Assembly (NCBI GenBank): GCA_001972305.1
Contig: BDDD01001510.1
Coordinates: 1 to 64,000, forward strand
Direction of reading: 5' to 3'
DNA: 64,000 nt
Source of the DNA: Cephalotus follicularis
Lineage: Eukaryota; Streptophyta; Magnoliopsida; Oxalidales; Cephalotaceae
This document shows, in pieces, positions 3,541 through 57,866 of this stretch. Both the position numbers and the translations under genes were made by a program. The notes beneath the pieces were generated by a model. It was not told the DNA's origin. It saw nothing but the letters and a program-made list of their open reading frames with translations, and searched no databases. How positions within the stretch are numbered: the first letter of the stretch is position 1; each line of letters begins with the position of its first letter.

Positions 3541-3935
3541 GTTTTTGTGCTCTCTCTTAGTGTCTTCTCTCCTCTCTCTCATATACAATCAAGAGTTGAA
3601 GGTTTGGGAAACCTGGTTTTAGAAATTAAAGCTTGGTGTGGATACCTTAGAGGCTTTCTATACTTGGAAGCTAGAATCGTTTTTCAAAGGTTCAACAAGT
3701 AGCTGTGCTTTTGAAAGCAAGAAGACTCAAAGGAAGAAGGAAGGAGCTGCTCCAATCATATGAGTAATTCTGCCTGCTCCTCCCCATTGTTTTATATATA
3801 ACTATAGATGTGTACTCAAAAGATCCTGGAAACGAACAATATGGCTTGATATTCATGAGATGATTACACAATATATGTTTTAGGGTTTTATGCATATAGA
3901 TATTTTATTGCTTAAATCGTCATAAGGTTCCAACA
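3541..3935 (+). repeat. 3' portion of the copia Z 5' LTR
   Basis: Sequence between the end of the G0 LTR and the Z primer site ends in GTTCCAACA at 3935, a typical CA terminus, and is followed by AAA and the primer site. The beginning of the LTR lies on the other side of G0, outside the window. A TATA-like TATATATAA occurs at about 3791. Confidence 0.75.
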
Positions 3936-3938
3936 AAA

Positions 3939-3950
3939 TGGTATCAGAGT
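3939..3950 (+). other. tRNA-iMet primer binding site of copia Z
   Basis: TGGTATCAGAGT lies three bases after the LTR end, differing from the G0 and copia B sites only in the last base. It fixes the plus orientation of Z. Confidence 0.9.
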
Positions 3951-4080
3951 CAGATTTGATGCATATATATAGTTATAAACATGTTTGTTGAAGATATGCT
4001 TGAATTGTTTAGGTTTAATCTGTGAGACGGAAGCATGGGATGCAAATTGGCGATTAGAATTTTTTTGTAGTCGCGAAAGC

Positions 4081-4364
4081 GTCCACGCCTTCATGAAAAG
4101 CGTCGACGCCTATGCGCGATACCACTGCAGGAATTGCATGAAGACGCGTAATGCATCGACGCATTTGAGAAAAGCATCGACGCTTAGGTGCTAAAGCGCG
4201 GACGCTTTTGAGAAAAGTGTCGACCCTTATGCGTTAAAACTGCGTCTTCACTTGAGTAAGGCGTCGACACCTACGCGTAAAATGATCGATGCTTTTGAGA
4301 GAAGCGTCAACGCTTATGTGCACAAAGGAACGCAAGCGTCGACGCTTTGTGCAAAAGCGTCGAC
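4081..4364. repeat. 21/22-nt GTCGAC array in the copia Z leader
   Basis: Cores of the type GTCGAC, ATCGAC, GTCAAC or GTCCAC start at about 4081, 4102, 4155, 4176, 4198, 4219, 4263, 4285, 4306, 4338 and 4359. Successive steps are 21, 53, 21, 22, 21, 44, 22, 21, 32 and 21 nt, so most are one or two units of 21-22. The arms differ from those in G0: they form AAGCGTCGACGCTT-like palindromes. The array lies in the leader, after the primer site and before gag, so it was part of the genomic RNA. Confidence 0.85.
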
Positions 4365-4909
4365 GGTTTTGCGTTAGTATTACAGGAAAAAGAGTTTTTC
4401 CAATTTACCTAATCAATTGTCTATGGTTTTAGAATTATATCTATCAAGTTTATTTGTTGATTCAATGAGATTGAATATGCATGATGGTATGGCTATGGAC
4501 TTGACCTAGTTTTATCTTATTTTATTCAAGTATTGAGTGTATGTTTTTATTTCATATTTTTCGGGTTGTAATATTTTAGAGACTTGTATGTCTCTCTTCT
4601 CCCTCCTAATTTATATATGTAATTCTTCTTCACCTCCTTGTAACTCCCCTTGACTTATTTCAAGGTTTCTATAGTTTATAGTTGGTTTATGTAATTAAAG
4701 TGCGAGCGTCACAGCGGAAGAAATTTTAAGGAGGACGAAGATATTAATAGACCCATGCGTGTATGAGAGCGAATGTATGATTGTAATAACATACCTAGGA
4801 ATGAGACCAGCAACTTGTTTCAGAGTCAGACAAGTTGTAGTAGTAAAATCCATAACCTGCCATTAGTTGTTAATAGTATGTATGTGATGCATGTCAAAAT
4901 TCTACTTTT

Positions 4910-4951
4910 GAGGTTCCAACGGCCTCCCCCTTAGAGGTTCCAACGACCTCT
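4910..4951 (+). repeat. Two hairpins with invariant TCCAACG loop
   Basis: GAGGT-TCCAACG-GCCTC (4910-4926) and AGAGGT-TCCAACG-ACCTCT (4933-4951) share the 7-nt loop. The inner stem pair changes from T-G to T-A and so keeps pairing. They sit in the Z leader about 200 nt before the larger hairpin set. Confidence 0.65.
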
Positions 4952-4996
4952 CCATATTATGACATCTACCTATAATTTGATTAATAAAGGTTTGGC

Positions 4997-4997
<1 letters not shown>

Positions 4998-5027
<30 letters not shown>
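4998..5027. repeat. (AAT)10 microsatellite
   Basis: Ten uninterrupted AAT units lie in the copia Z leader. Simple-sequence repeat; no function is implied. Confidence 0.95.
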
Positions 5028-5030
<3 letters not shown>

Positions 5031-5126
5031 ATTTCTATTATTATTCCTCAATTATATCATGATATCAAGTTAAAGCACAACAGGCACAAGAGAGTGTTTG
5101 GTCGTTGCCTTCTGCCATTACAACTG

Positions 5127-5474
5127 ATATAGATGCTTTTGGAAATTGTGAGTGTTTTGGCCCCCATCAAGGCTTACCTTTTCTAGGAACATCTATATGA
5201 GTTGAACATGAGATATACATACAGATGAATTGTGAAAGTGAATGTTTTGGCCCCCGTCAAGATTCACATTCATTGATTCATTGTGTGTTGGATGGTAGGT
5301 TAAACTTGACTACAATGCATATGGCGTTTTGGCCCCCGTCAAGGTCATATGTAGACTAGAGGAAAAACCGATGATCGGGAATCATGCTATTGTATAGTTG
5401 GTAAGAGTTTGCCTAACTACAAGTTTCAGTATAGCATTTTGGCCCCCGTCAAGGTTATACTGAATATGTTGTAG
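5127..5474 (+). repeat. Four covarying hairpins with invariant GGCCCCC loop
   Basis: Four hairpins share a loop of consensus TTTTGGCCCCCRTCAAG but have different stems. (1) GTGAG 5148-5152 pairs with CTTAC 5173-5177 inside an outer stem ATATAGATG 5127-5135 / CATCTATAT 5190-5198. (2) GTGAAT 5238-5243 with ATTCAC 5262-5267; outer ATGAAT 5225-5230 / ATTCAT 5268-5273. (3) CATATGGC 5318-5325 with GTCATATG 5344-5351. (4) TTCAGTATAGC 5425-5435 with GTTATACTGAA 5454-5464; outer CTACAA 5417-5422 / TTGTAG 5469-5474. G-T wobbles occur in stems 1, 3 and 4. The block lies between the primer site and gag, where LTR-element RNAs usually carry packaging and dimerisation signals; that role is inference. Confidence 0.88.
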
Positions 5475-5686
5475 GACACTAATCCCTACTAGAAAATGAG
5501 ATCCATGAGACTTGGATTGTTATTTCTCGTCTTCCACAATATTTAAGGGTTATGGGATTCGCGCAAAACAGTGGGAGCTTGAGAGGAAAAACACCTAAAA
5601 GATTAAAGACAAAATCTTTATGGTTATAAACATTTAAATTGAATTTATCTGAATATTGTCTTTATTTTATATCTGTAGAAATCGCA

Positions 5687-6565
5687 ATGACAAATCCCCT
5701 TACTGTAATACTTGAGAAGAATCAGTTGATAGGTCCATATTATATGGACTGGCTACAGAATGTCAGAATAGTTCTGAATTTCGATGACATAGAGCATGTC
5801 CTAGAGGCCCCTATGCCAGCACTGCCTGCTGAAGGTGCCTCAACCGAAGATCGTGCCATTTGTAAGAAATGGGTGGCTGATGAAAAGAAAGTCAGAAGAT
5901 ACCTAATGACATCGATGAGCAATGCCCTACAAATCCAGCATAAATCGATGCGAGATTCTAGGGAAATTCTCCTATATCTCCACGAGTTATACGGAGAGAC
6001 TAGTAGGAATGCTCGGTTCTAGCTCACCGCTGAGCTGTATGGCACTAAAATGGCTGAAGGATCTTCTGTTCATGATCATGTGCTTAATATGATCAATGCA
6101 ATTGAATGTCTTGTTGATCTTGGCATCATTCAAGATGCTGAATTAAGCACTAATCTGATCCTTCATTTCACTTCGACCTTCCTTCTCTGGTTTCATCAAC
6201 AATTCTAACATGAATAAGATATCAGCTACTATGGCTGACCTTCTAAACATGCTGAGGGAAGATGAAATGAACATGAATAGGGATAAGGCGCCAATCATGA
6301 TGGTAGGATCATCCCGTAGGCCCAAGAGGAAGGGCAAGTCAAACCATGTGAAGGGAACAAGTGGGACAATACCACCACGATTGACATCTTTCAAACCAGC
6401 GAGAGACATACCACATAATCAGACAAACCAGCAAGCTATTGCTGCGCCGGACACTGTCGCAAGAGTAGCAACTACTGAGGAATCTGCCTCAGAAGCTCCC
6501 GCTAAGGGAGCGTGCTTCCACTGTGGGAAGCTATGAAATTAGAAAAGGAAATGTGTGACATTCCT
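5687..6565 (+). pseudogene. Copia Z gag with zinc knuckle, broken
   Basis: The chosen start is the ATG at 5687 (MTNPLTVILEKNQLIGP), directly after a splice-acceptor-like TATCTGTAG. The copia gag domain (UBN2 / gag-polypeptide type) follows: an LIGPYYMDWLQNVRIVL segment, a WVADEKKVRRYLM segment and an ELYGE motif. A TAG at 6020 breaks the frame, the same frame resumes (ELYGTKMAEG) and stops again at about 6206. The frame then shifts by one to NKISATMADLLNMLREDE. The CCHC knuckle begins CFHCGKL at about 6512 but meets TGA; a second stop lies inside before KRKC. Role: coat protein and RNA binding in the virus-like particle. Compare copia A gag at 10680. Confidence 0.85.
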
Positions 6566-6589
6566 TCGATCAATTGGTAAAGGTATGCC

Positions 6590-6860
6590 CTATTTGTCTT
6601 ATATAGAGGTGAATATGAATATTTCTGATTCATCTTTCTGGATTTTAGACAGCGGATGTGGTACTCACATATGTTCTAATTTATAGGCCCTCACGAACCG
6701 AAGAAACCTTGAGAAGGGTGAGGGAGTTCTACGGCTTGCGGATGGTTCCATTGTTGAAGCCATAGCTATAGGATCGGTTTATATTTTGCTGCCTTCGGGC
6801 AAGAGTTTAGAACTCAAACATTGTGTTTATTCACCACACATTTTGTGAAATATTATTTCT
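6590..6860 (+). pseudogene. Copia Z aspartic protease remnant
   Basis: The retropepsin of copia elements releases gag and pol products from the polyprotein. The catalytic signature reads FWILDSGCGTHICSN, with Asp-Ser-Gly at 6647-6655, in the expected context for the copia family. A stop follows at about 6685, then GVLRLADGSIVEAIAIGS and an ELKHCVYSPHIL segment (the usual LKNVLYVP-like strand) ending in another stop. The active-site triad itself is kept, but the frame is not. Confidence 0.8.
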
Positions 6861-7765: not shown

Positions 7766-7989
7766 TGCTACTTTTCTTGAGAAGGACTTCCTGTCTGAAG
7801 ACAGAAGTGGGAGTGTGATAGATTTAGATGAATGATCTAAAGAACCACAAGTTGAGGGCCTATCCAATCCTGTTCAAATTAATGTTCCAGAAATGCCGGA
7901 TACCACAGATACATAACCTCTGCATAAAACTACCCGATTACCAAGGGAACCTGAGAGATACTATGGTAGTTTTCTCATTGAAGGTACCC

Positions 7990-8590
7990 AAGAGGTCATG
8001 AATGATGATCCGGTAAGCTACAAAGAAGCCATATGCGATATAGACTCAGAGAAACGGCTTAAAGCCATGAATTCTGAAATGGAATCCATGTACTCCAACA
8101 AAGTTTGGGATCTAGTGGATGCACCCGAAGGGGTTAAACCCTTAGGATGCAAATGGATTTTAAAAAGGAATCTTGGAGACGATGGAAATCTGAAGACCTT
8201 TAAAGCTAGGCTCATAGCCAAATGTTACAATCAACGGGAAAGGATTGATTATGAGGAAACTTTCTCTCCCATAGCCATGCTTAAATCCATTTGGATTTTA
8301 CTTGGTATAGCTGCACATTTTGACTATGAAATATGACAAATGGATGTGAAAACTTCTTTTCTCAATGGAAACATTGATGAAGATATTTATATGACTCAAC
8401 TTGAGGGTTTCATATCCACTGGTGAGGACCAGAAAGTGTGCAAGCTTCAGAAGTCCATTTATGGACTGAAGCAAGCTTCGAGTAGTTGGAACATCCGATT
8501 CAATGAGACAATCAAAGAGTTTGATTTCATTAAGAATCGAGATGAACCATGTGTGTATAAAAAGGTTAGTGGGTGCTCAGTGACTTTTCT
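7990..8590 (+). pseudogene. Copia Z reverse transcriptase N-terminal half, cut by LTR H
   Basis: The copia RT (RVT_2 family) is recognisable from RLKAMNSEMESMYSNKVW, VDAPEGVKPLGCKWI, FKARLIAKCYNQRE and YEETFSPIAMLKSI, then DVKTSFLNGNIDEDIYMTQ and a KLQKSIYGLKQAS segment. A TGA at 8334 falls where the tryptophan of EIWQMDVK would be. The frame ends at CSVTFL, exactly where LTR H begins (8591), just before the catalytic YVDD box. The rest of this RT is not found in the window. Confidence 0.88.
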
Positions 8591-9537
8591 TGTAACGCCC
8601 GAGATTTTTATATGTTGTAGTTTCATGATGTAAATGTACTATTATTGTGGAAACTAATAAAATGATGGATTTCCTGACTTTGATGATGTTTTCCAAACTC
8701 TAATCATATTGATTTTGGAATACGAATGTTAAAGAAATGTTAAAAGAGCAACTTGAAGTAAAACGGCACAGTTTTGGAGAAAAATGCGTCGACGCCTTTT
8801 GAACGCATCGATGCCTTTGAAACAAAGAGACGCACGTGAATGCATGTGCATGCACGTCGACGCCTATGAATAGCGTCGACGTCTTTCAGTTAAAACTCTA
8901 TAAGCATCGACGCCTGCATGCAAACGTTGACGCTTAGTGACAAATGACAGACATGTTCTTCTATTGACAGAATAACGTGCAAGAGGACAACTTATGGTCA
9001 CTTTGCAGGAGCCTTGGGGCACGGAAAATATGTGTTGAGCATGCTGGCATGTTACCAGGCATGCAGGTGCTAGAAGAGAAGAGATGGCATGACACTTGGG
9101 TGTGCATGCAGGCTGAGAGACAGCCTTCATCACCTGCTCCTGCAAAGGAAAAGAGACAAAGCTGAGAAAGAGAGAAAAATGGGAAAATGTAATTTGTGAG
9201 ATGCATGCAACAGACAAGTGAAGAAGGGGAGAGTTTCCATAGCATAATTGCTCCTCTTCTCCCCACTGGTTCGGCTAAAAACACCTGAGTGTGAACAAGG
9301 AAAGAGGTTCCACCATTGTTGAGCATTTTCGAGCTTGGAACTTGAAGCTTGTGGGCTAGTAGCAACGAGACGATCCTTGGAGCAGCAATGGCCGGTTCTA
9401 GGACTTAAAGAGGTGGATTTTCTAGTTCCTAACTTGGAACAAAGAGGTAGGGGAAGCCATAATCGTAATTTTGACCTTAATATTCATGCATGGAAAATGG
9501 TCTTTGTGCATAGTTTCCATGGTTATTGAACTAATTT
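8591..9537 (+). mobile_element. Gypsy LTR H, 5' part, inserted in copia Z
   Basis: It starts TGTAACGCCCGAG at 8591, disrupting the Z RT frame. The first 110 bp align well with the 5' end of the G0 LTR. It is only about 0.95 kb against 2.5 kb for the related G0 LTR, so the 3' part is missing at about 9537, where unrelated LTR sequence begins. It carries a GTCGAC array (8788-8931). No coding potential is recognised; the overlapping short frames at 8864-9365 have no family signature. The right edge is approximate. Confidence 0.7.
8788..8931. repeat. GTCGAC array in LTR H
   Basis: Cores start at 8788, 8807, 8856, 8875, 8906 and 8926 (GTCGAC, ATCGAT, ATCGAC, GTTGAC), with short steps of 19-20 nt and longer ones of 49 and 31. 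The arms resemble GCGTCGACGCC, like the copia Z leader and unlike the G0 LTR that H otherwise resembles. Confidence 0.75.
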
Positions 9538-10512
9538 TGATCACTGGATCAATGCCATCAAACTGTCTCAGGCATTTTACTTATTAGCGTTAACGTCTAA
9601 CAATGCATATTGACCCACAGGTAATATGAATTTTCCTTGAACCATAAAATGTAGGTACGTGCATGTTTAATCTTTCCATCGTCAATGCTCTAATTAAACC
9701 TAGGGCATGGATTACGTTAAACCCCATTAGCATAATTTATCGGTACCATGATATAATGTCATTGGCCCTACATATTAGAGGTGCCCCTCTAACATGAACC
9801 AGTGATATATGAACACTTCCTTCATACCACTGATCTTACCTTGGCCAGGGCTTTTCGGCTAATGACCAATCAATATGAGCATTTATCCCTTTTACTCGTA
9901 GCGATGGATCCAATCTTGCTCACTCACCTATATCTTCCATAAACCTACAATACCCAACCAATGCTCATATACTCCCTGCGGTTAGGAGACACATGTGAGC
10001 ATTATCAAAGCATAACATCTTATGCACATGATACAAGTGGTAGCTCATGTCTAAGGACCACTGTTACACTGCTGCTATCAGGAATGTCCATTTGACGTAG
10101 AGTAAAAATTCTATACGGGCATTCCTTCTTGCGAGTCAACTTCAGTGAACTCATTCACCCACGTGTATTGCCCTTGTCTCCACAAAATGACTTATGAGAT
10201 CAGTCACCCTCTAAACGAGCTGGCATACTACGTGCTGGTCTCATTGGATTAAGCATGCCCTGAGTATTTAATCCTACGACCAGGAAGATTCAAGAATAAA
10301 GCTTACCAAGGTTCCAATTCTCACTTCTTGATCTCATCAAGAATTTGGTCCTCAAACTTTAATCTCAGGACATTCAACTGTAAATTCATGCATTAATACA
10401 GTAAATGAACTCATAGCCATTGATAACAAATCATTCATTTTATTGAATATCATTAAAGACAAGTTTACATATTACAAGATATGGCAACTGCGTGCAGGAC
10501 ATATCTCTAACA
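9538..10512 (-). mobile_element. Angela-like copia LTR, probably solo
   Basis: On the minus strand it begins TGTTAGAGATATGTCC at 10512, a start characteristic of Angela-type copia LTRs (TGTTRGARATATGYCC-like), followed by an AT-rich polyadenylation-type stretch. The boundary with copia A is sharp: from 10513 the sequence matches the leaders of copias B and C. The left end is uncertain; TGATCACTGG at about 9538 is a candidate terminus, but no matching TSD was found. No gag or pol accompanies it. Confidence 0.55.
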
Positions 10513-10679
10513 CTTGGAGCCTCTCGAATTCCACATGGAGGTGTGTGATACAATTAGAATAGTGGGAGGATCCATAAACACTAAAGACCAAGTGTTATGG
10601 TTATAACATAGAATTGGAATAATCTGCTAATATTTTCTATTTGTTTCCTCTTATAGGTTATTAGATATATATTCTGTTT
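10513..10679 (+). other. Leader fragment of copia A with splice-acceptor-like end
   Basis: The stretch TCTCGAATTCCACATGGAGG and what follows (GTGGGAGG, CAAGTGTTATGGTTAT) is shared, on the opposite strand, with copia B at about 26380-26540 and copia C at about 56070-56230. A pyrimidine tract then TTATAG-GTT at about 10650-10660 precedes the gag start in A and B alike, suggesting that the leader may be spliced. Confidence 0.6.
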
Positions 10680-11385
10680 ATGGAAATCAGCATAGCGATA
10701 GCACGCGTCTTGGAGACGAATAAGCTAGAAGGTCCTAACTTTCTAGACTGTCAGCGTAACTTGCGCTTCAGTCTCACGAGCATGAAAATTGCTCATGTTA
10801 TGATCGAGAGCCCCCTTGGACTTGGTTCAAACCCATCCGAAGAGCACAAGGTCAAGGTGGCCAAATGGTTTGAGGATGATGAGCAAGCTCGATGCTTTGC
10901 CATTGCAGGCATGGTGCCAAAATTGCAAAGCCAACATGAGCATCTTGAAACCTTAGGTGCCTTACTTTTACGATTTAAGGAGTTATATGGGGCACGGTCT
11001 AGGACCGCTAGGTTCAACTTGTCTCGTCAGCTCTGTTGGATGAAAATGCCCGAGGGAGAATCAGTCTATCAGAATGGGCTGAAGATCATTGATCTGATTG
11101 AGCAGTTGGCTCAGTTTGATCTTATCATGGACAATGATTTTTACATTGACCTTATACTCTCGTCCCTCCCTCAGTCATTCTCCATATTCATAAAAAATTT
11201 CCACATGAATAAGCTGGAATGTACTCTCCTAGAGCTAATGGAAATGCTTCTGATAGCTGAGAGAGACATGGACCATGGGTAGTCGAAGTCGAATGTGATG
11301 CTTCTCCCTACTTCCTCTAGGACAACCCCTAGGAGGGGCGGATCCAAAAGATCCAAGTCCAAGTGCAAGGCGCCCATGAAGAAGA
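10680..11385 (+). pseudogene. Copia A gag, 200 codons open, truncated by copia C
   Basis: The best-preserved copia gag in the window, open from 10680 to 11282. It begins MEISIAIARVLETNKLEGPNF, followed by the conserved LDCQRNLRFSLTSMK, a WFEDDEQARCFAIAGM segment and FKELYGARSRTARFNLSRQL, all typical of the UBN2-type gag domain. After a TAG at 11280 the basic linker continues (SRTTPRRGGSKRSKSKCK) and should lead to the zinc knuckle, but copia C starts at 11386. The frame is plus, opposite to C. Everything 3' of this point lies beyond C, outside the window. Confidence 0.85.
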
Positions 11386-13011
11386 TGTTGGGAAACCTGC
11401 TAGGGTTCCCAGTGGATTTTGGTCCAAGGATGCTATGCGGAAAAATTTTAATTTTTCAAAACTACCAAGACTCCAAGTCAAGGATTAACTAGCATCCTAT
11501 ATCCAAAATAAATGTCCTAGGATCTCCATTTAGAATTCAATCGAACCAATTCAATTAGTCAAGCATGCATAAACAAAACCGAATACAATTCGGTATAAAC
11601 ATAGTGATTGGAATGATACCATCATTTGGAGGCTCCAACATCTTTGCCGCTACAAGCTTGAAGCAGCCTCTTTATGACGGCATACATTGTTCATCACCAG
11701 ACCTCCGGCCAGGCTACTTTCGGCCTACAAATCCGTCGATCTACATGCTGGTGTCGGAGAATCGCCAATAATTGCTATGGATCGCATAGTCACAGCCGAC
11801 AGTGAGCCCAACTCACTGAGTTGACTCACTCGGCAACGACCACTCCGGACAAGACATGGCAGGGGCCATAAAATCTCTTATCCGTTTGTCTCTGCTCGAG
11901 ACTCGTTGTGACTCATTACTGAGTCATCTCACCGGAGCTCGAGTCATATTGCTCAAGCTCTGGTCACACCACCGCCACATGTTAAATCATCCAATCTATT
12001 CATTGCTACCAAATACCCACCGTGAGTCACCCCACAACGCCTAGTCACAGCCTTCACCATGCCGAACTAGCTGAGTTGACTCAGCCGGCAAAAATGACAC
12101 CAAAACAACACCGATCTGAACGGACAACGCCTAAACTAACATCAATATAGGTAGAGCTAATGTGAGCTCCAACTATAGAGACTACCACTGGCAAAGAGAA
12201 CTCGACAATGACGACAAAGCTCCAAACTTTGCCATCAGGGAGAAAGGAAGAGGAAGAGAAGGAGAAAGAAGAGAAGGAGAAGACATACGAACTATGGTGA
12301 ACCGCTCAACATATCACTCCCTGTCCGCCGGTGCCTCCAAGCCGCTACCACTTCTCTCTTTCTCTTTTTCAATTTCGTACACCATAGCCTTCACACGCCC
12401 ATTCTCTCTTTTTAATTTCGTGTGTTATATCTCCTCTTGAAAAAACGCGTCTTACGTTTCATTAAAACGGCTGGCGCTTTTAGCGCCAGTATTTCTCTTT
12501 TCTTCTTAATGTGTTGTCCACAAATTACGCATACACACACACACACATCAGTCTTATCCTCCCCATATTTAACTTCTATTCATATATTAATCAGGCATCC
12601 AGTGGGATAAGATACAAGCGACCAAATCCATGTGGCGCCAAGTGTCCCACTAATGTTCGATTAATATATACTAGTTAAACAACTAGTTTTACCACCAAGT
12701 GACATGTGTCTAACACATATCACTTTTTGATAATAAGGCATGATCTGAAAGTCCAGATCAAAATCGTTAACATTGGTAAATTACCACAGCGCTCCAACGC
12801 ACAGGTAAAATCACCGTAAATAGTCCTCAACTATTTTAACAACCCTAATGTCATGTTCAAAATATTTTGGGTGTGGAAATTAATCCAAATTAATTTCCCA
12901 TATCATACATCTGTTTTTGATTCACCCGGTACTTTTCCCTGTCGACGGTTACAGTGTACTATAATCCCCCATCATCTCGGCTCGTCTGTGTCCTATGGTA
13001 AGGATACGTGT
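11386..13011 (-). repeat. Copia C 3' LTR, first piece
   Basis: It starts TGTTGGGAAACCTG, related to the B LTR ends at 20135 and 27837, and interrupts the copia A gag linker. Similarity to the B LTR continues through CCAAGACTCCAAGTCAAGG, GAGTTGACTC palindromes (11810-12080), a GA-rich stretch (12230-12290) and the region of 12700-13010. An (AC)7 run lies at 12533-12546. It is interrupted at 13012 by T with TSD CGTGT. Removing T rejoins GGATACGTGT to CAACCATAG, which lines up with GGATAAATGTCACCCCTAGG of the B LTR. Confidence 0.8.
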
Positions 13012-26310: not shown

Positions 26311-27822
26311 AAGTTTAGGATTGTTAAACGTGTTTAAAGTTAGTTTGTGTTGTTTGCCAATTTGAGTATATAATCAAGTATGTAAAAACTAGCAACCTAT
26401 AAGAGGAAAAAAGAAGAAGAGAATATTAACAGATCATTCCATTTATGTTATTACCGTAATCCTTGGTCTTTTGTAATTATAGCTTCTCCCACTATTCTAA
26501 TCGTATCCCACACCTCCATGTGGAATTCGAGAAGCCTTATGCCTCCTAATGGAGATCAGAATCTATCTCTCTTTATCATGACCCCAGCAGTGTGCATGAA
26601 CTGCCACAATATAAAGATAGTTAGACACGAGTGCCCAATTACATTAGGACCTCTTGCCCTCAGTGTAAGATCCGATACAAGTTCCGGCCTCACTACCCAT
26701 ACAATCCACAATCGTGTGTTGTGCCAATAGTATGAACTCGGTATAAGTCCGAACCCATAATTCTCAAAGAAATGAACCCGTTTTGATACCCGCCCGTGTG
26801 CGTGCCAACGGTACCGAAACATGGCTGCTTCTTTCCAGTAATCCCTTAGTACTGAAATTGAACAGAAATGGTCATACAGAGAACCTTTGCCTTGTGCAGT
26901 GCTATCCCAAATATATCCACACCATTCAACGAAAATTATGGAAGGCCAATGATGGGACAACCTTATGTCCCACCGCTTAAGAACTTATTATTTAACAAGT
27001 TGAAGGAATTTGGTATCATCAAATTTTATATATTACCATGCTGTTAATTAGATTGATTTTATCGTCCAATCCAATTGAGCGGCTTAGCATGCTTGACGTG
27101 TTTGGATTGTTTGCAACAAGAAAACATCCATCTCATGCAACCTATTTCCCACTTAGAAATAAATATGGCATGGCCAGGGACTAAATCTATGAGTGATCAC
27201 ACATACCAATGTAACCACTCGATCTCCTAGGTGAACTATTTAAAACTACTTTGTTATAAAATGCACCACGCATACATGGCCTTCACTTGGTCTTGTAACT
27301 TCCTTTATCTTCCTCTACAAGCTCCTTTGTTATTCTTCTCTTCTTTGTTTACAAAAAGAAATTTCTCAAAATAAATTTTAAAAATAAAGAACAGAATACA
27401 AATGGGAGGGAGAGAGCGAATAATACAAATAAGGAATCAATGGTGCTCACAGGCAACCAAATTACAGACCAAATAAAAGCACAAGTTAACAAAGTAAATT
27501 AAACCATCCACAAAAGAAATCAAAAGCTAGGTCCAGTCCCATAACCAACCATCATGCATAAGACATTTAAAATCTACATCCACTATAAACTTTAAAAAAA
27601 CACAAGTAATTTCAATTTCCGATGGCCAATCGAAATAATTTCACAAGTGCACCGACACTCCAATAAACCTCCCACTAGATTATTTAAAACCTAGTTTCCC
27701 GAAAAAAAATTATTTTATAAAACAACCATGGGAAGGGAATTAAACCAGAATTTCAGGTACTTTAATTATTCCAAAATAGCCACCAAAACCAAAATTAAAG
27801 TACAATTGAAATTAAACGGATC
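26311..27822 (-). other. Copia B leader
   Basis: Untranslated region between the primer site and gag. It shares the TCTCGAATTCCACATGGAGG block (about 26515) with copia A and the CCCACTAGATT-A-TTAAAACCTAGTT block (about 27670) with copia C. A pyrimidine tract and TTATAG-GTT precede gag at about 26398-26425, as in copia A. A 134-codon frame at 26556-26960 has no gag or pol similarity and is rejected as a gene. Confidence 0.75.
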
Positions 27823-30160: not shown

Positions 30161-32194
30161 GTTTCTCATACATGTTTATTAATTCTCTCAATTAATTAAA
30201 CATGATTCTCTCTTTAATGATTTCATTAAAGTCTCTCACTTTAAATAATTAAAGACCCTCTCTTTAATTAATTTAATTAAAATTAAATCATGCTCCGGCT
30301 TCAAATCTCTTATATATGAAGATGACAATTAGTAGAATGAAAAACAAACCAGTAATGTCAAAAAAAATATATACTAGTTAAAAACTAGATTTACCACCAA
30401 GCGAGCATGTGTGCAGCATGCGTCACTTTTCCAATAATCAGACGGGACCCGAAAGCCCGGTGGAATTCAGATACGATGATAAATTTCTCAGAACATCCCT
30501 AAGTTCTAGTACAACTATCCAGCTAATAGTCCCGGTGTGATCTATAATCACCCCCGGATCCGCGAACCAAAAAGTACCACGTCTATCATTCGTTAACTGG
30601 TTCCCTCGTACTTTATCACTGTCATTGGTTTGCGTGCAGTGTATCATTCGTCATCTTGGCTCTGACTGCGGACTAGGGTTTGGATAAATGTCACCCCTAG
30701 GAAAAAACCGCGATAACTATAATTCTATGAACGCACTAAGACTATGGGAGATATCCCCGAAAACCTCTTGTTCTCAATCTCCCAGTGCCTGGCCAGGACT
30801 TTAAGTCTTCAACGGTCACAGATGTTATAGAGCCTATAACCCTCAACACGGGTGTGACGATCCCATCTTGCGCACTTGTCCACACATCTCAATGCAGCTT
30901 CCACAAGGCCCAAAGACAACCCTTTTGCCAGCACGTGACTAGTGCTGGGGAAGGTGGAAATCAAAGCCAAGTAGTTACTACACAACGTATGTCAACCGCT
31001 CAGGTCTAACGATACAACGTAAATCATGTATGATCTACTAGTCACCTTTGACTAAGCACTGCCACGACAATAGGAACTCTATTGACAGAGGTGTTGACTC
31101 TCCAAATACATAACCTATGGTGGGTCGGTTTAGTGTCGTGCCTCTACACGCACCCCGCATCAACTTGAGGATAAAACCAAAATGGCAATGAGATGATCCA
31201 TCCTCCTTTGCCATTCGGAGCAAGCATAACATTGCAAGTCTTTGCGGTTCATCAATTGCCCTAAGAAAGTGAACCTATGACTTGGAACTTTTGTCACAAG
31301 GGAGTAAGGATTTCATTCTCATAACCTCTCAGGCATGAGATCCAACCATTTATGGACATGGTGCTCTATGTGTATGCTATTCACATGGTGATCAACTGAT
31401 CCATAGAGACGGTATGTGATAATACATATAGCTAGATGCTAATCTTTACTGAAAATGCACGATAAAACCTGAATGGAACTAAGAATGTACGATTCTAGAG
31501 TGTGTCGTATGCTGAGAACATATGTCTGCAGGCTCCTTGTGGCTTGCAGGGAAACCCTAATCTAACAGGATTCTTGGGAGAGCAGAAGAGGAGGAGATCA
31601 AAGTGAGGTAAGGAAATTCTATACCCATTTATGTCAAAGCTTCCCCTGTTTAACTTCAAAATTATACAGCAGATTGTTTTATTCATATCTTACTCGTTTC
31701 TAGATGAAATTTCAAATTCTTGAATGTTTTCAAAACCTTAAGATGTCTGATTTAACTGTTATGTTTTATGCATCTCAAAATTCTTTCTAATTCTTTATGA
31801 AAAGTCCTGTTTGCTTCTACTGCTCAGGTCCTGTTTTCAAAAGGAAACTGCAACTTTAAAAATTCATTGCAGCTTCGTTCCTCAATGGAATTTTATGATT
31901 TTTATCTCTATGAATTCATTGAGATGTCTACTTTAACTTTGATAATTTAATTTTTCCAGGAAAGAGTTTATTTCTATATGAAATATCTATTTTAGAAAAG
32001 TTATACAAAGTTGTTTTATAAATGTTTTTGAGTTAATTACTCAAAGTGATGAGAAATGTTTTATGGTTGTGAAATGAAATGAAATGAATATTTCTACATG
32101 AGAAACCAGTTTTAGAAATGTTTTATAATGATGTTTTATGAATGCTTCGATCGGATCATTCAAGGTATTAAGGAAAATTTTATGAAATGATTTT

Positions 32195-32546
32195 ATGAAT
32201 GCATTTGAGCTAACTACTCATATGACGAGAAATGTTTTATGAATGCATTTGAGTTAAGTACTCAAATGAAGATAAATGTTTTATGAATGCACTTGGGTTA
32301 AGTACTTAAATGAAGAGAAATGTTTTATGAATGCGTTTGAGTTAAATACTCAAATGAAGAGAAATATTTTATGAATGCATTTGAGTTAACTACTCAAATG
32401 AAGATAATTGTTTTATGAATGCATTTGAATTAACTACTCAAATGAAGAGAAATGTTTTATGAATGCATTTGAGTTAATTACTCGAATGAAGAGAAATGTG
32501 TTATGAATGCTTTGAGCTGGTCACTCAAAGTATTAAGAAATGTTTT
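32195..32546 (+). repeat. Eight 44-bp hairpin units in the E1 5' LTR
   Basis: Units start at 32195, 32239, 32283, 32327, 32371, 32415, 32459 and 32503, exactly 44 bp apart. The core CATTTGAGT-TAACT-ACTCAAATG is a 9-bp stem with a 5-nt loop; the linker is GAAGAGAAATGTTTTATGAA-like. Loop bases vary (TAACT, TAAGT, TAAAT), and the last unit uses CTTTGAG / CTCAAAG with a longer loop. A related single unit (TTTGAGT / ACTCAAA) lies about 180 bp upstream. Confidence 0.9.
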
Positions 32547-32575
32547 ATGAAATGAATTTATAACATGAACAACTA

Positions 32576-32649
32576 CTGGATTGCGATCCAGTAATGATTA
32601 ATCTAGTAAAAGATTAATGAATGAACCACCCTTAGATTGCGATCCAAGG
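32576..32649 (+). repeat. Two TGCG-loop hairpins in the E1 5' LTR
   Basis: CTGGAT-TGCG-ATCCAG (32576-32591) and CCTTAGAT-TGCG-ATCCAAGG (32630-32649) share the loop and inner stem but have different outer arms. The 3' LTR copies are at 46157-46172 and 46211-46230; the latter is a perfect 8-bp stem (CCTTGGAT / ATCCAAGG). Between them ATTAATCT and AGATTAAT form a further inverted pair. Confidence 0.75.
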
Positions 32650-33819
32650 GGAATGGAGCGAGATGCTCAATGTTAATGGAGCCGAGCGTGCTCACGGACA
32701 TGTATGTGATGTAAGGATAGTAATCGGGGAGTGCACAATGCCCCCGTGAAGCGGTGTGAAAGGGTTCATTAGAGGTTCACGACCATTAAGTTTTATGAAA
32801 TGTTCTGTTTCATGAGATATGAACAGAAAAAAAAAAAGGTTTTAAAGATGTTTTGTTTATGAATGTGAAGAAAACGATTTTACTGATGTTTTCAAGTATG
32901 GTTGTTATACAAGCCAAAAGAACGTATGTTTGGAAAATATTTTTGATTGTTTTCAAGTAGGTTGGTGTTATACACCAGAAAATGCATGATTTTGGAAATG
33001 TTCTCATTTTATGAAAACTATCAGAAACAATGGATTTTGACAGTGAAATGTGTTAGTTTTATAAAACCAGAAGAAGATTTTTAACGATATTTTAAAGTGA
33101 ATGAACTAGAAATGTTTTGATAAAGATTATAAAAAACAACGGATTTCAATGACGTTTTATGACTAAGATCCTAACTGGGCTATTTGAGCTCACTCCTTTC
33201 AATGTCTTGTTCTCAAACAAATCTTCTAGGAAACGTTGAACGTGAAGTTGCGAGCTTTAGAGGAAGTTCACAAAAGAAGTGTAAGGAAAGGAAGTACGAT
33301 ATCCTATGAAGTTATGTTTTAATGTCATGTGTTAATGTTTTCCGCCATGTAACATTTTATGATAAACGATGTGTATATGTTAAAATAAGGAAATGAATGC
33401 TATAGGTTATGATGTTTCTATGTAAGATGATGATATCAAAAGTTATTGAGCATACTTGAGAGTATGAGAAATTAATGGTAATGGTGAGTATATGATTGTT
33501 TTATGATGTAATAAGTTTATGTTTTTCCACTGTGTAAGGTTATATGCTAAGTGATGTACAAATGCAAAGGTATTAGAAACGATCATGATGATGAGAATAT
33601 GACATTTTGAACTTGGTGTTCAAAGATTTGAACCTATGTGATCATATGAAGTTATTGAGTAATAATGCTAGGTTTTAAATGTAAGTTAAGATTAAATGAT
33701 TAATGGATCGTTAAATGATTAAACGATTTGATGGTTAATGGTTCACCCCACGTAACGCACCGATTTCTCGAGGCTCTCTTTGAGCATAAAGTGGACTCGG
33801 GTCGGGGGCGTTACAGAAA

Positions 33820-44830: not shown

Positions 44831-47334
44831 CTCGTGACCGGCGACGCTTAGGGATAAAGAGACGACGCTTTGCCCTGTGTCAGGTGCAGAATTCTAGCTT
44901 TTTTATCTCGTTTCGGAGGATTTAAATGGATTGTGGGACACGTGTCAAGAAAGGGGATGAAGACTTATGTTTTTCTATTGGAAAGGGGCAGGTGGCATCA
45001 TTGGATTGGATTTAATTAATCACATGGGCAACTAGGAGGCAAACTCACATGGGTGAGGTCATGGATGACACCATGCAAGCTTCGCCTCCAAGTTTCTCTC
45101 TCTCTTTATATATGGGTGCATTCTCAGCTGATGAAGGGTTGCTTTCTACTGAGATTGGCAGAGAAGAAGAGGAGGAGATCACAGTGAGGTAAGGAAATTA
45201 TATACTCATTTATGTCAAAGCTTCCTCTGTTTTACTTCAAAATTATGCAGCAGATTGTTTTATTCATGTCTTACTCGTTTCTAGATAAAAATTTAAATGG
45301 TTGAATGTTTTGAAAACCTTAAGATATCTACTTTAACTGTTATCTTTTATGCATCTCGAACTTCTGTCAAATTCGTGATGAAAATCCCCGTTTGGTTCTA
45401 CTGCTCAGGTCCTGTTTTCAAAAGGAAACTGCAACTTTAAAAATTCATTGCAGCTTCGTTCCTAAATGGAATTTAATGATTTTTATCTCTATGAATTCGT
45501 TGAGATGTCTACTTTAACTTTTATTCTTTAATTTTTCCAGGAAAGAGTTTATTTCTATATGAAATATCTATTTTAGAAATGTTATGCAAAGCTGTTTTAT
45601 AAATGTTTTTGAGTTAATTACTCAAAGTGATGAGAAATGTTTTATGTTTGTGAAATGAAATGAAATGAATGCTTCTACATGATAAACCAGTTTTAGAAAT
45701 GTTTTACAATGATGTTTTATGAATGCTTTGATCTTATCACTCAAGGTATTAAGGAAAATTGTATGAAATGATTTTATGAATGCATTTGAGCTAACTACTC
45801 AAATGAAGAACAATGTTTTATGAATGCATTTGAGTTAAGTACTCAAATGAAGAGAAATGTTTTATGAATGCATTTGAGTTAAGTACTCAAATGAAGAGAA
45901 ATGTTTTATGAATGCATTTGAGTTAAATACTCAAATGAAGAGAAATTTTTTATGAATGCATTTGAGTCAACTACTCAAATGAAGATAATTGTTTTATGAA
46001 TGCATTTGAGTTGACTACTCAAATGAAGAGAAATGTTTGATGAATGCATTTGAGTTAATTACTCGAATGAAGAGAAATGTGTTATGAATGCTTTGAGCTG
46101 GTCACTCAAAGTATTAAGAAATGTTTTATGAAATGAATTTATGACATGAACAACTACTAGATTGCGATCCAGTAAGGATTAATCTAGTAAAAGATTAATG
46201 AATGAACCACCCTTGGATTGCGATCCAAGGGGAATGGAGCGATATGCTCAATGTTAATGGAGCCGACCGTGCTCAAAGACATGCATGTGATGTAAGGATA
46301 GTAATCGGGGAGTGCACAATGCCCCGGTGAAGCGGTGTGAAAGGGTTCATTAGAGGTTTACGACCATTAAGTTTTATGAAATGTTCTGTTTCATGAGATA
46401 TGAACAGGAAAAAAAAAGGTTTTAAAGATGTTTTGTTTATGAATGTGAAGAAAACGATTTTACTGATGTTTTCAAGTATGTCAGTGTTATACACCAGAAA
46501 ATGCATGATTTTGGAAATGTTCTCATTTTATGAAAACTATCAGAAACAATGGATTTTGACAGTGAAATGTGCTAGTTTTATAAAACCAGAAGAAGATTTT
46601 TAACGATATTTTAAAGTGTATGAACTAGAAACGTTTTGATAAAGATTATAAAAAATAACGGATTTCAATGACGTTTTATGACTAAGATCCTTACTGGTCT
46701 ATTTGAGCTCACTCATTTCAATGTCTTGTTTTCAAACAAATCTTCCAGGAAATGTTGAACGTGAAGTTGCAAGCTTTAGAGGAAGTTCACAAAAGAAGTG
46801 TAAGGAAAGGAAGTATGATATGCTATGAAGTTATGTTTTAATGTCATGTGTTAATGTTTTCCGCCATGTAACATTTTATGATAAATGATGTGTATATGTT
46901 AAAACAAGGAAATGAATGCTATAGGTTATGATGTTTCTATGTAAGATGATGATATCAAAAGTTATTGAACATACTTGAGAGTATGGGAAATTAATGGTAA
47001 TGGTGAGTATATGATTGTTTTATGATGTAATAAGTTTATGTTTTTTCACTGTGTAAGGTTATATGCTAAGTGATGTACAAATGCAAAGGTATTAGAAACG
47101 ATCATGGTAATGAGAATATGACATTTTGAACTTGGTGTTCAAAGATGTAAACATATGTGATCCTGTGAAGTTATTGAGTAATAATGTTAGGTTTTAAATC
47201 TAAGTTAAGATTAAATGATTAATGGATCTTTAAATGATTAAACGATTTGATGGTTAATGGTTCACCCCACGTAACGCACCAATTCCTCGAGGCTCGCTTT
47301 GAGCATAAAGTGGACTCGGGTCGGGGGCGTTACA
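44831..47334 (+). repeat. E1 3' LTR, second piece
   Basis: It continues the E1 LTR after E2 (CTCGTGACCGGCGACGC matching 19797) and ends GGGGGCGTTACA at 47334. It contains the 44-bp hairpin array (45776-46127) and the TGCG-loop hairpins. Where copia B sits in the 5' copy, this LTR is continuous (about 45145), which confirms the B insertion point. Confidence 0.9.
45776..46127 (+). repeat. Eight 44-bp hairpin units in the E1 3' LTR
   Basis: Units start at 45776, 45820, 45864, 45908, 45952, 45996, 46040 and 46084, the same number and period as in the 5' LTR, so the array predates insertion. Most units keep the perfect CATTTGAGT / ACTCAAATG stem. Confidence 0.9.
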
Positions 47335-56160: not shown

Positions 56161-57866
56161 AGTTCCTCCCACTATTATAATCATATTCCACACTCCCATG
56201 TGGAATTTGGGAGATCCAACTCTTAGTGGGGATTGGAATCCAACTCAATATATTATGGCCTCAGCTTTAGCATGACAAACCATAATACCCAAGATGGGTA
56301 GGCTCACTCACCAATTTACACTGCGTAGGGTTCCACCCTCGACATGTAAGATCCAATCTTAGATTCGACCTACCGGCTCAGTATGGTCTCCACATTAGCT
56401 CGACAAATCATTAGAGCCAACATAAATCCACACGTTTTGATACCCAAACATTTACATGTCCAAGTGCCAAACCATTGCGATCTCCTTACAGTGCCCAACA
56501 CTGACATTGACATGACATCTGACAGACTACAGACCTCAGCTTTAGCATGACCTCCCACAATCTATCCATGCCACTCAACGAGAACCGTGGAAGGCCTCGT
56601 CGGGTCACTAACTTGTGGCCCTAGAGTTAAGACTTATTATTTGTAATCTGGAGGAATTTGGGTCTCATATTTTAATATTACCAGCCCTTATTAATTGATT
56701 GTTATCTTCACCAGTTCCAATTAATTACGGCTGAGCATGCTTCACATGTTTAAACAATCGATCTCATGCAACCTATGTCCAACATAGAAAAAAAATGGCT
56801 AGGCTAGGGACTAAAACTATAAGTGATCACACGAGCCAATGTGATCACTTGGTCTCCTAGGTGAACTATTTAATTCTACTTTATTACAAAATGCACCATG
56901 CATTCATGGCCTTCATTGGTCTTGTAATTTTCTTCATCTTCCTCTTCCTCTTCTTCCTTTAGTTACAAAAAGAAATTTCCAAAAATACATTTGAATTTAA
57001 AGAATAAGAATACAAATTAGAGGGAGAACAGATCCTATCCTAGAGAGGAATTAAAAGATAAAAAATATGGTGCATGCATGCAACCTTATCACAAACCAAT
57101 AAACCATTAAAGTAATAAATAAAATTAAACATCCACGAAAGAAAATAAAATCTAGGTCAAGTCCCTTAGCCTACCATCATGTATAAGACATTCAAAAATT
57201 ATATCTAATATAAACTTCGAATAAACACAAATAACTTCAATTTCTGATGGCTAATCAAAATAATTTTAACAAGTGCGCCGATGTTTTAGTAAAACTCCCA
57301 CTAGATTAATTAAAACCTAGTTCCCCTTCGTTTAATGAAATTAATTTTACTTTTCTAAACTTTTCAAAAACAATGTTCGTGCGCATATGCACCCCGTGCC
57401 TGCGCGAGCGCTACGTGCCCCGCACTTGTGCACGATGTGTTTTGCACGTGCGTTATGTACATTATGTACTTGAACTATGCATCTTGGTGTGACAAGTTTC
57501 TATCCAGAATGCACATCTTCCATGCTTGTACACTTGTCGCTCTGCAGGCAGCAGAAATACTGTTGCCCGCCAGCTTGACACCAGGTAAATTTCCTGCAGG
57601 AAACTATGTGCAGAAAAATTTTGAACACGTTACTCGTAACACCATGTAAATCAGTATGTTGACCTTCCAAGGCCATGTTAGTGATCCGTAACTGTACTTA
57701 GGAGTCTGTTTTTCTATCCACTACAAAACAGCCGAAAGTACACGCTTCTGGACCCAAAAATAGTCCACTAGTCGGTCTACTGCACTAGTTCGCAAATTAG
57801 GTCCAACCAACACACAAACACATTTCACAATCCAATAGCACATTTATAAAACAACCAAGTGAGGGA
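56161..57866 (-). other. Copia C leader, cut by copia D
   Basis: Shared with copia B: the block around 56190-56215, GTGATCACTTGGTCTCCTAGG (about 56840; 27225 in B), CACTAGATTAATTAAAACC (about 57299) and TTATAAAACAACCAAG (about 57845; 27715 in B). Between 57355 and 57840 there is about 480 bp absent from B, of unknown origin, beginning with a GC-rich alternating stretch of CGTGC/GCACG words. The leader ends GGGAATTA at 57870, where copia D begins, before the C primer site is reached. Confidence 0.7.

Follow-up and report, generated by a model that had tools for sequence, protein, structure and literature searches.

What does the untranslated leader of a plant retrotransposon do with one short sequence repeated four times, each copy enclosed in a stem of its own? 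The question is raised by the window, the whole stretch of 64,000 nucleotides analysed here from the Cephalotus follicularis genome (1.58 Gb in 9,746 contigs), where such an array lies between the primer site and gag of a Ty1-copia element. To our knowledge, the way in which plant LTR retrotransposons choose RNA for their particles is hardly understood.

Four hairpins in the leader of a degraded copia element

The host of the array, element 1, is a degraded Ty1-copia copy that covers about 3.9–8.6 kb of the window, with an RVT_2 match at 7917–8336, and, judged by eye, is apparently interrupted from about 8.6 kb onwards. Its leader measures about 1.75 kb from primer site to gag and contains the array (Table 1). 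The identity of the primer site rests on its position, because such matches are no more numerous in the whole window than chance allows; a match with at most two mismatches lies 1127–1313 nt ahead of hairpin 1 in 23 of the 43 array loci for which 1300 nt or more of upstream sequence is available, with overlapping loci of the same element counted separately. A Pfam search of the gag pieces of element 1 from the window gave no match. The open gag frame of a relative (L085) contains Retrotran_gag_2 (PF14223) and a CCHC zinc knuckle, and PF14223 is found again in a second gag of the window, at 10665–11282; together with RVT_2, these assign the hosts to Ty1-copia. Dense CpG-rich short repeats of the type AAGCGTCGACGCTT occupy 4074–4373 in the leader of element 1 and recur at about 8780–8960. 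Elsewhere in the window, tandem repeats of about 44 bp (32184–32559 and 45765–46140) lie within a long pair, 31574–33815 and 45155–47334, about 94–96% identical, which are probably two copies of one element.

Table 1. Landmarks of the element 1 leader and the two further arrays found in the window
Feature	Position	Strand	Remarks
Primer binding site TGGTATCAGAGT, start of element 1 leader	3939–3950	+	One mismatch to TGGTATCAGAGC
Hairpin 1	5127–5198	+	Motif 5155–5171; outer stem 5127–5135 with 5190–5198
Hairpin 2	5224–5282	+	Motif 5245–5261
Hairpin 3	5310–5359	+	Motif 5327–5343; 10-bp stem adjoining the motif
Hairpin 4	5419–5472	+	Motif 5437–5453; 11-bp stem and outer ACAA/TTGT stem
Conserved block directly 3′ of hairpin 4	5475–5494	+	Homologous to GATTCCGATCCCCACTAGGA after hairpin C of family 2
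3′ splice-site-like tract CTTTATTTTATATCTGTAG, just ahead of the gag start codon	5660–5678	+	Lead only; final AG kept in 22/28 family-1 loci
gag N-terminal part, element 1 (degraded copy)	5687–6022	+	Stop at 6020–6022
Family-2 homologous array W27m	26540–26925	−	Tips CACAA/CACAC/CACAC/CACAC; aligned in A1
Family-2 homologous array W56m	56220–56600	−	Tips TAAA/TAAA/TAAT/TAAA; aligned in A1

The motif TTTTGGCCCCCRTCAAG has four exact matches on the plus strand and no fifth in the window at up to three mismatches; shuffles gave a mean of 0.26 matches, and four or more in none of 100. Exact matches and predicted folds thus confirm the central claim of the first-pass annotation, namely that four motif copies stand between primer site and gag, every one enclosed by a separate stem. 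Several of its details had to be revised. The copies start 90, 82 and 110 nt apart, instead of the 80–107 nt given at first. The stems, put at 5, 6, 8 and 11 bp, do all pair, and their uninterrupted lengths come to 6, 6, 10 and 11 bp when a stem must start no more than 1 nt from the motif and G-U is allowed; shuffled flanks matched these lengths in 567, 752, 2 and 2 of 20,000 trials for hairpins 1–4, the product of the fractions being about 1e-11. An outer stem, expected in at least three hairpins, is long in hairpins 1 and 2, 4 bp in hairpin 4 and merely 3 bp in hairpin 3. That the stems share no sequence holds for four of the six hairpin pairs, whose flanks are no more alike than composition predicts (identity over 60 nt ranges from 0.13 to 0.42 across all pairs, against a predicted 0.27), and fails for the mildly similar pairs of hairpins 1 and 2 (0.42) and 3 and 4 (0.37), both of which reach 0.50 over the inner 24 nt. 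Nor is the motif an open 17-nt loop: in hairpins 2–4, UUGGC and GUCAA are predicted to pair beneath a CCCC tetraloop, while hairpin 1, with A at motif position 12, is predicted to fold differently at the tip. The tip sequence is CCCC in all four.

Selection on stems and tip across family-1 copies

Genome-wide, exact copies of the motif number 3,399 (1,678 + 1,721), against four of the reversed motif. Loci were also picked by a gag piece instead of the motif (13,055 first-look candidates, of which 150 were scored and the best 30, including the window copy, cut out), and at least three recognisable motifs lie upstream of gag in 28 of these best 30, the exceptions being L066 and L078, a proportion that may not hold for the whole group as the 30 are close relatives of the window copy. 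In all, 67 distinct family-1 arrays have four recognisable hairpins, spaced exactly 90/82/110 in 41 of them; two motif-chosen loci, L015 and L026, have a single motif each. A separate family bearing the exact motif between unrelated flanks was sought with a pattern (Y at −3, R at +2) that would catch about a quarter of such flanks, and the one place found is a family-1 copy with a replaced flank. Beyond the source genome, four single exact matches in viral contigs and single occurrences of a 15-mer in at least 119 bacterial or archaeal stretches are taken as chance.

Because most copies are dead and decay freely, and because changes shared between copies have probably passed through replicating elements, the stems were judged by variants common to many copies. 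All nine stem variants present in at least six of the 67 copies keep a standard pair, each being a change between G-U and Watson–Crick, compared with 27 of 135 cells for rare variants in three copies or fewer (p = 2e-6) and 19 of 38 when only single transitions are considered (p = 0.005); the nine may lie on few subfamily branches, with independence not assured, and the comparison was designed after the stem cells had been seen. It omits the −2/+1 pair of all four hairpins, since 30 loci had been picked for a pyrimidine there (in this pair, hairpin 1 has six broken TT cells and hairpin 4 has 16 TG cells that still pair), as well as the mostly unpaired −8/+7 of hairpins 1 and 2 and variants in four or five copies. 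The first-pass annotation had named unpaired stems in other copies as the observation to look for against it. Dead copies do break their stems; the shared variants do not, and its claim that the stems are kept as stems while their sequence changes stands. So does its claim that the tip is kept as sequence: in 26 family-1 loci chosen by gag, shared variants fall in 0 of 60 non-CpG motif columns and in 18 of 240 flank columns (p = 0.016), and only C11 and G12, a CpG, vary within the motif. As no other part of the motif has shared variants, its R most likely reflects decay of this CpG (CCCCCG to CCCCCA), with G ancestral.

The predicted fold of positions 5100–5490 has an energy of −131.6 kcal/mol (z −5.9). 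A folding z-score on its own is no proof of function: further 350-nt tiles of element 1 also beat their shuffles (z −4.1 at 8140–8489, −3.9 at 5690–6039, −3.7 at 3940–4289 and −3.3 at 6390–6739), and the tile with hairpin 4 alone (5340–5689, z −0.5) does not. The family-1 array gives z −4.76 on the sense strand and −0.74 on the antisense strand, and four arrays of the second family described below give −2.5 to −4.0 and −0.1 to −1.2, respectively. An Rfam search of window positions 3800–6000 returned nothing above the curated score; of five matches below it, none falls on the array's sense strand. Pairing kept through G-U and good folding on the sense strand only argue for RNA, not DNA, as the acting form. 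Repeats working at the DNA level, either as transcription-factor sites in the leader or as cruciforms, have a precedent in the Drosophila copia untranslated leader, for which an enhancer region with binding sites is announced in a title cited by PMC2829016, but neither G-U steps that preserve pairing nor sense-only folding would be expected from them, and this explanation appears extremely improbable. The leader of family 1 carries a genuine array of RNA hairpins that is under selection.

A homologous array with different tips in a second family

The second copia gag of the window (10665–11282) is 35% identical to that of element 1 over 105 residues. A first-look search with it gave 20,485 candidates and 150 were scored; the leaders of 23 relatives (L092–L114) were read. 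A readable array is present in 20 of the 23 (L099, L108 and L112, without a readable full array, were left out), and two more lie on the minus strand of the window; family 2 thus denotes 20 arrays close to the second gag plus two in the window, 22 rows in alignment A1, all from one genome, so the subfamilies below are not many independent lineages. The second gag itself seems to have lost its array: in the window stretch 10460–10690, homology to family-2 leaders begins at about 10510–10520, past the array.

The four family-2 hairpins, A, I, B and C, have apices 91–96, 80–82 and 121–128 nt apart (about 92/81/124, against 90/82/110 in family 1), with exceptions in L102 (I–B 73), L113 (A–I 44) and W56m (I–B 55). 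Hairpin C lies 32–34 nt before GATTCCGATCCCCACTAGGA, and hairpin 4 of family 1 lies 30 nt before a homologous block that reads GACACYGATCCCCACTCGGA in many copies; because both families have this block and the spacing is alike, the two arrays are taken as homologous, with I corresponding to hairpin 2. The block GATTCCGATCCCCACTAGGA is found at 12,728 places in the genome at up to three mismatches (reversed control, 39), and this copia group therefore probably accounts for a considerable part of the genome. A primer site precedes the array by about 1.2 kb in L094 and the window copy and was not found in the stretch read of L092 and L093. Several family-2 leaders (e.g. L095, L096 and L105) have an extra hairpin, AAGCGGTRGGGCAC..GTGTCCYATCGTT, upstream of hairpin A, with a loop that by eye is unlike the tips.

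The stems of A, I and C covary. Their pairs are formed in 96.3% of 890 cells, against 35–48% for slid partners, in a structure that is the consensus fold of the same alignment and so favoured over the slid controls. Double changes occur in 13 of 41 pairs (6.7 in shuffles) and 56 cells (18.6), and the covariation score is 0.365 (0.235), values attained in 0 of 500 shuffles each, although relatedness of the rows may by itself lift such values above those of shuffles. Stem B is absent from the consensus fold and was realigned as A2 on 14 of the 22 rows, where 80.6% of 175 cells pair (25–51% when slid) and double-change cells number 14 against 6.6 (0/500), with double-change pairs at 6 against 4.2 (58/500) and further pair types at 12 against 11.7 (287/500); support for B is less strong than for A, I and C.

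The tips differ from those of family 1 and between subfamilies. In the order A/I/B/C and with boundaries cut by eye, they read CCACC/CTCC/CCACC/CCACC in the L094 group, CACAC/CACA/CACAC/CACAC in L106, L107 and L109 (L106 and L107 each have CACAT in a single hairpin), CTCAG/CCCC/CTCAG/CTCAG in L093, TACA/TCAC/TACA/TACA in L104, TACA/TCCC/TACA/TACA in L113, TACA/TCC/TACT/TACA in L103, GATA/GACA/GACA/GACA in L105 and GATA/GACA/GATA/GACA in L097. Discordance is found at hairpin C in L092, L101 and L110 (CCACAG) and in L114 (GACACAG), where A and B have CTCAG, at C again in L095 (GATA/GACA/GACA/TACA), and clearly in L111 (GAAA/GACA/CAACG/GACA). In fixed windows, the longest common substring of A, B and C is 6.4–6.9 nt within an element and 4.3–4.4 nt between subfamilies. 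By permutation, their concordance is matched in 0, 0 and 1 of 20,000 trials with rows clustered at 90, 85 and 80% identity, the clusters being built from sequence outside the tips, whereas those of a first version had been chosen by eye after the tips were seen; at 75%, all rows form one cluster and the test says nothing. Hairpin I, with family 1 left out, has no significant concordance with A, B and C (longest common substring; 4464, 4112 and 3730 per 20,000).

Across the genome, the tip strings of three subfamilies have 144, 88 and 423 occurrences, and their reversed controls none. Among the matches listed, pairs counted by eye number 11 for CCCACC, 124–125 nt apart (of 100 matches), 11 for CACACGG, 123–125 nt apart (of 88), and five for CTAAAG, 296–306 nt apart (of 100), distances as expected for two hairpins of one element. 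A partner for the tips within the leader was also considered: GCGGTRGGG, upstream of hairpin A, looks complementary to CCCACCGC in one subfamily and, by eye, does not follow the tip elsewhere, so that the resemblance is taken as coincidence. A second copia family with the same architecture and with different tips that largely match within each element is new here.

Matching tips could in principle arise with no reader at all. Reverse transcription switches templates readily, and template switching or gene conversion might homogenise the tips of purely structural hairpins; in the L094 group, B matches C over stretches of up to about 20 nt (L098 has TTGTCATGCCCACCGCTGAG). The stems beside the tips, however, are not homogenised and co-vary (of the six flank comparisons in family 1, four give no more identity than chance), and patches of about 4–20 nt limited to the apex are hard to obtain by conversion without selection, which makes concerted evolution alone quite improbable.

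Like-with-like pairing would also make the tips of an element match. A dimerisation signal, in which the tips of two RNA copies form kissing loops, gains from the several identical loops, suited to multi-point contact, and from self-complementary tips: GGCC in family 1, CATG or CAGCTG in some family-2 arrays and CTCAG, which self-pairs at four of five positions. The first-pass annotation had drawn attention to GGCC in this role, and as a general principle it does not hold up, as GGCC falls within the predicted stem at the apex and is missing from the C/A-rich apical loops of most family-2 arrays. Self-pairing is impossible for the loops CCCC, CCACC, CACAC, TACA and TAAA, and in five of six classes isolated tips co-fold at best within one SD of their shuffles, the exception being CTCAG (−13.4 against −6.8 ± 3.4). 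Self-complementary loops are thus no general feature, CTCAG excepted, and dimerisation is improbable as the common role of the array, even if loop–loop contact may take place in family-2 arrays with CATG, CAGCTG or CTCAG tips.

A possible reader of the tips and comparison with known systems

The tip sequence is conserved within a family, so that something probably reads it; the tips change together, so that the reader probably sees several of them; and since tips differ between families yet are mostly alike in the hairpins of one element, the element itself most likely encodes the partner. We therefore infer that a large plant lineage of Ty1-copia elements has a cis-acting RNA array in its unspliced leader, in which four hairpins at nearly fixed spacing would display a short apical sequence, the same in four (family 1) or three (family 2), to a trans-acting partner that reads it multivalently. 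The candidate reader, and the simplest one to vary from family to family, is Gag, which has a CCHC knuckle; each family's Gag would select genomic RNA of its own kind out of thousands of related transcripts. Like a retroviral Psi, the array is a structured RNA lying between primer site and gag, and its hairpins repeat a short sequence at the apex (all four in family 1, and A, B and C but not I in family 2). That it is a multivalent recognition signal for a family-specific partner, most likely Gag, and serves Psi-like packaging, has in our estimation an even chance of being right. Among the roles named in the first-pass annotation, packaging or binding of Gag stays the most probable.

The same leader has features that bear on splicing and translation. 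The window copy has 52 ATGs ahead of gag, and in family 1 the tract before gag reads TTTATTTTATATCTG(C/T)AG, ending in TGCAG or TGTAG, with the final AG lost in six of the 28 loci shown; from this acceptor-like tract, the leader may be an intron. At the corresponding position, the family-2 leaders W27m and L093 have TTTCCTCTTATAG and TTTCCTCTTAATAG before GTTGCT. If the tract is used, gag mRNA would lose the array by splicing and genomic RNA would keep it; the tract, with its AG kept in most loci, and the many leader ATGs make a spliced gag mRNA without the array plausible. A leader so rich in ATGs and with such a tract also calls for an export or translation device, and the array may instead be read by a host RNA-binding protein or an export, splicing or translation factor, with tips drifting as families specialise on other host readers or escape repression. 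A precedent is the structured leader of cauliflower mosaic virus, which recruits TREX export factors according to the accessible text of a 2025 review. A single host factor, however, should keep one motif, and within this one genome the tips switch together from subfamily to subfamily; a host reader is accordingly unlikely.

Recognition by the element's own Gag could be carried a step further, to a code of self-identity in which each copia family bears one tip on several hairpins, read by its own Gag, tips and Gag changing together, and co-resident families thereby avoid cross-packaging. We offer this extension tentatively and would put it somewhat short of even. If it is true, we know of no earlier case in plant retrotransposons of a multivalent RNA recognition array specific to the family. 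The site is short, present in several copies per RNA and exchanged naturally from one family to another, so that specificity is directly testable; the concerted change of tips along with covarying stems is an unusually clean case of RNA co-evolution and could help to classify copia families.

A literature search for the motif strings found no paper containing them, and among the papers on copia leaders, packaging, dimerisation and hairpins within its reach, subscription papers lying mostly outside, none describes this array; in the main text of the 2025 review mentioned above, which treats the plant LTR retrotransposon life cycle, 'dimeriz', 'stem-loop' and 'hairpin' do not occur. Related arrangements can still be named. 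Sireviruses, also plant copia elements, likewise have conserved motifs that recur in their non-coding regions; as far as the text available describes them, these are not leader hairpins but DNA palindromes, mostly with a CGG-CCG signature, in the 3′ LTR and at the env side (PMC2829016). Fungal GalEa copia elements, which have no primer site, possess a Conserved Hairpin Site, a single hairpin directly after the 5′ LTR that resembles the array as a conserved hairpin in a copia leader; in the portion available, its stem is reported as conserved and its loop as the least conserved part, the opposite of the array pattern (PMC5445492). The barley element BARE2, also a plant Ty1-copia, is described as having conserved dimerisation and packaging signals, and BARE2 RNA enters BARE1 particles (PMC3735527); the word 'hairpin' is absent from the main text of that paper. 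The retroviral dimer initiation site is a leader hairpin too, and the family-1 motif contains GGCC, but that site is a palindromic kissing loop, while most array loops are not self-complementary and each leader has four hairpins. MLV has two GACG hairpins. GACG-tetraloop leader hairpins of alpha- and gammaretroviruses, with a conserved short loop linked, in the text consulted, to packaging and dimer stability, are the nearest known case (PMC516450). No homology to them is claimed for the array. The gammaretroviral GACG tetraloop is absent among its tips (CCCC, CCACC, CACAC, CTCAG, TACA, GACA/GATA and TAAA), and it differs further in its four hairpins, its plant copia host and the concerted change of its tips.
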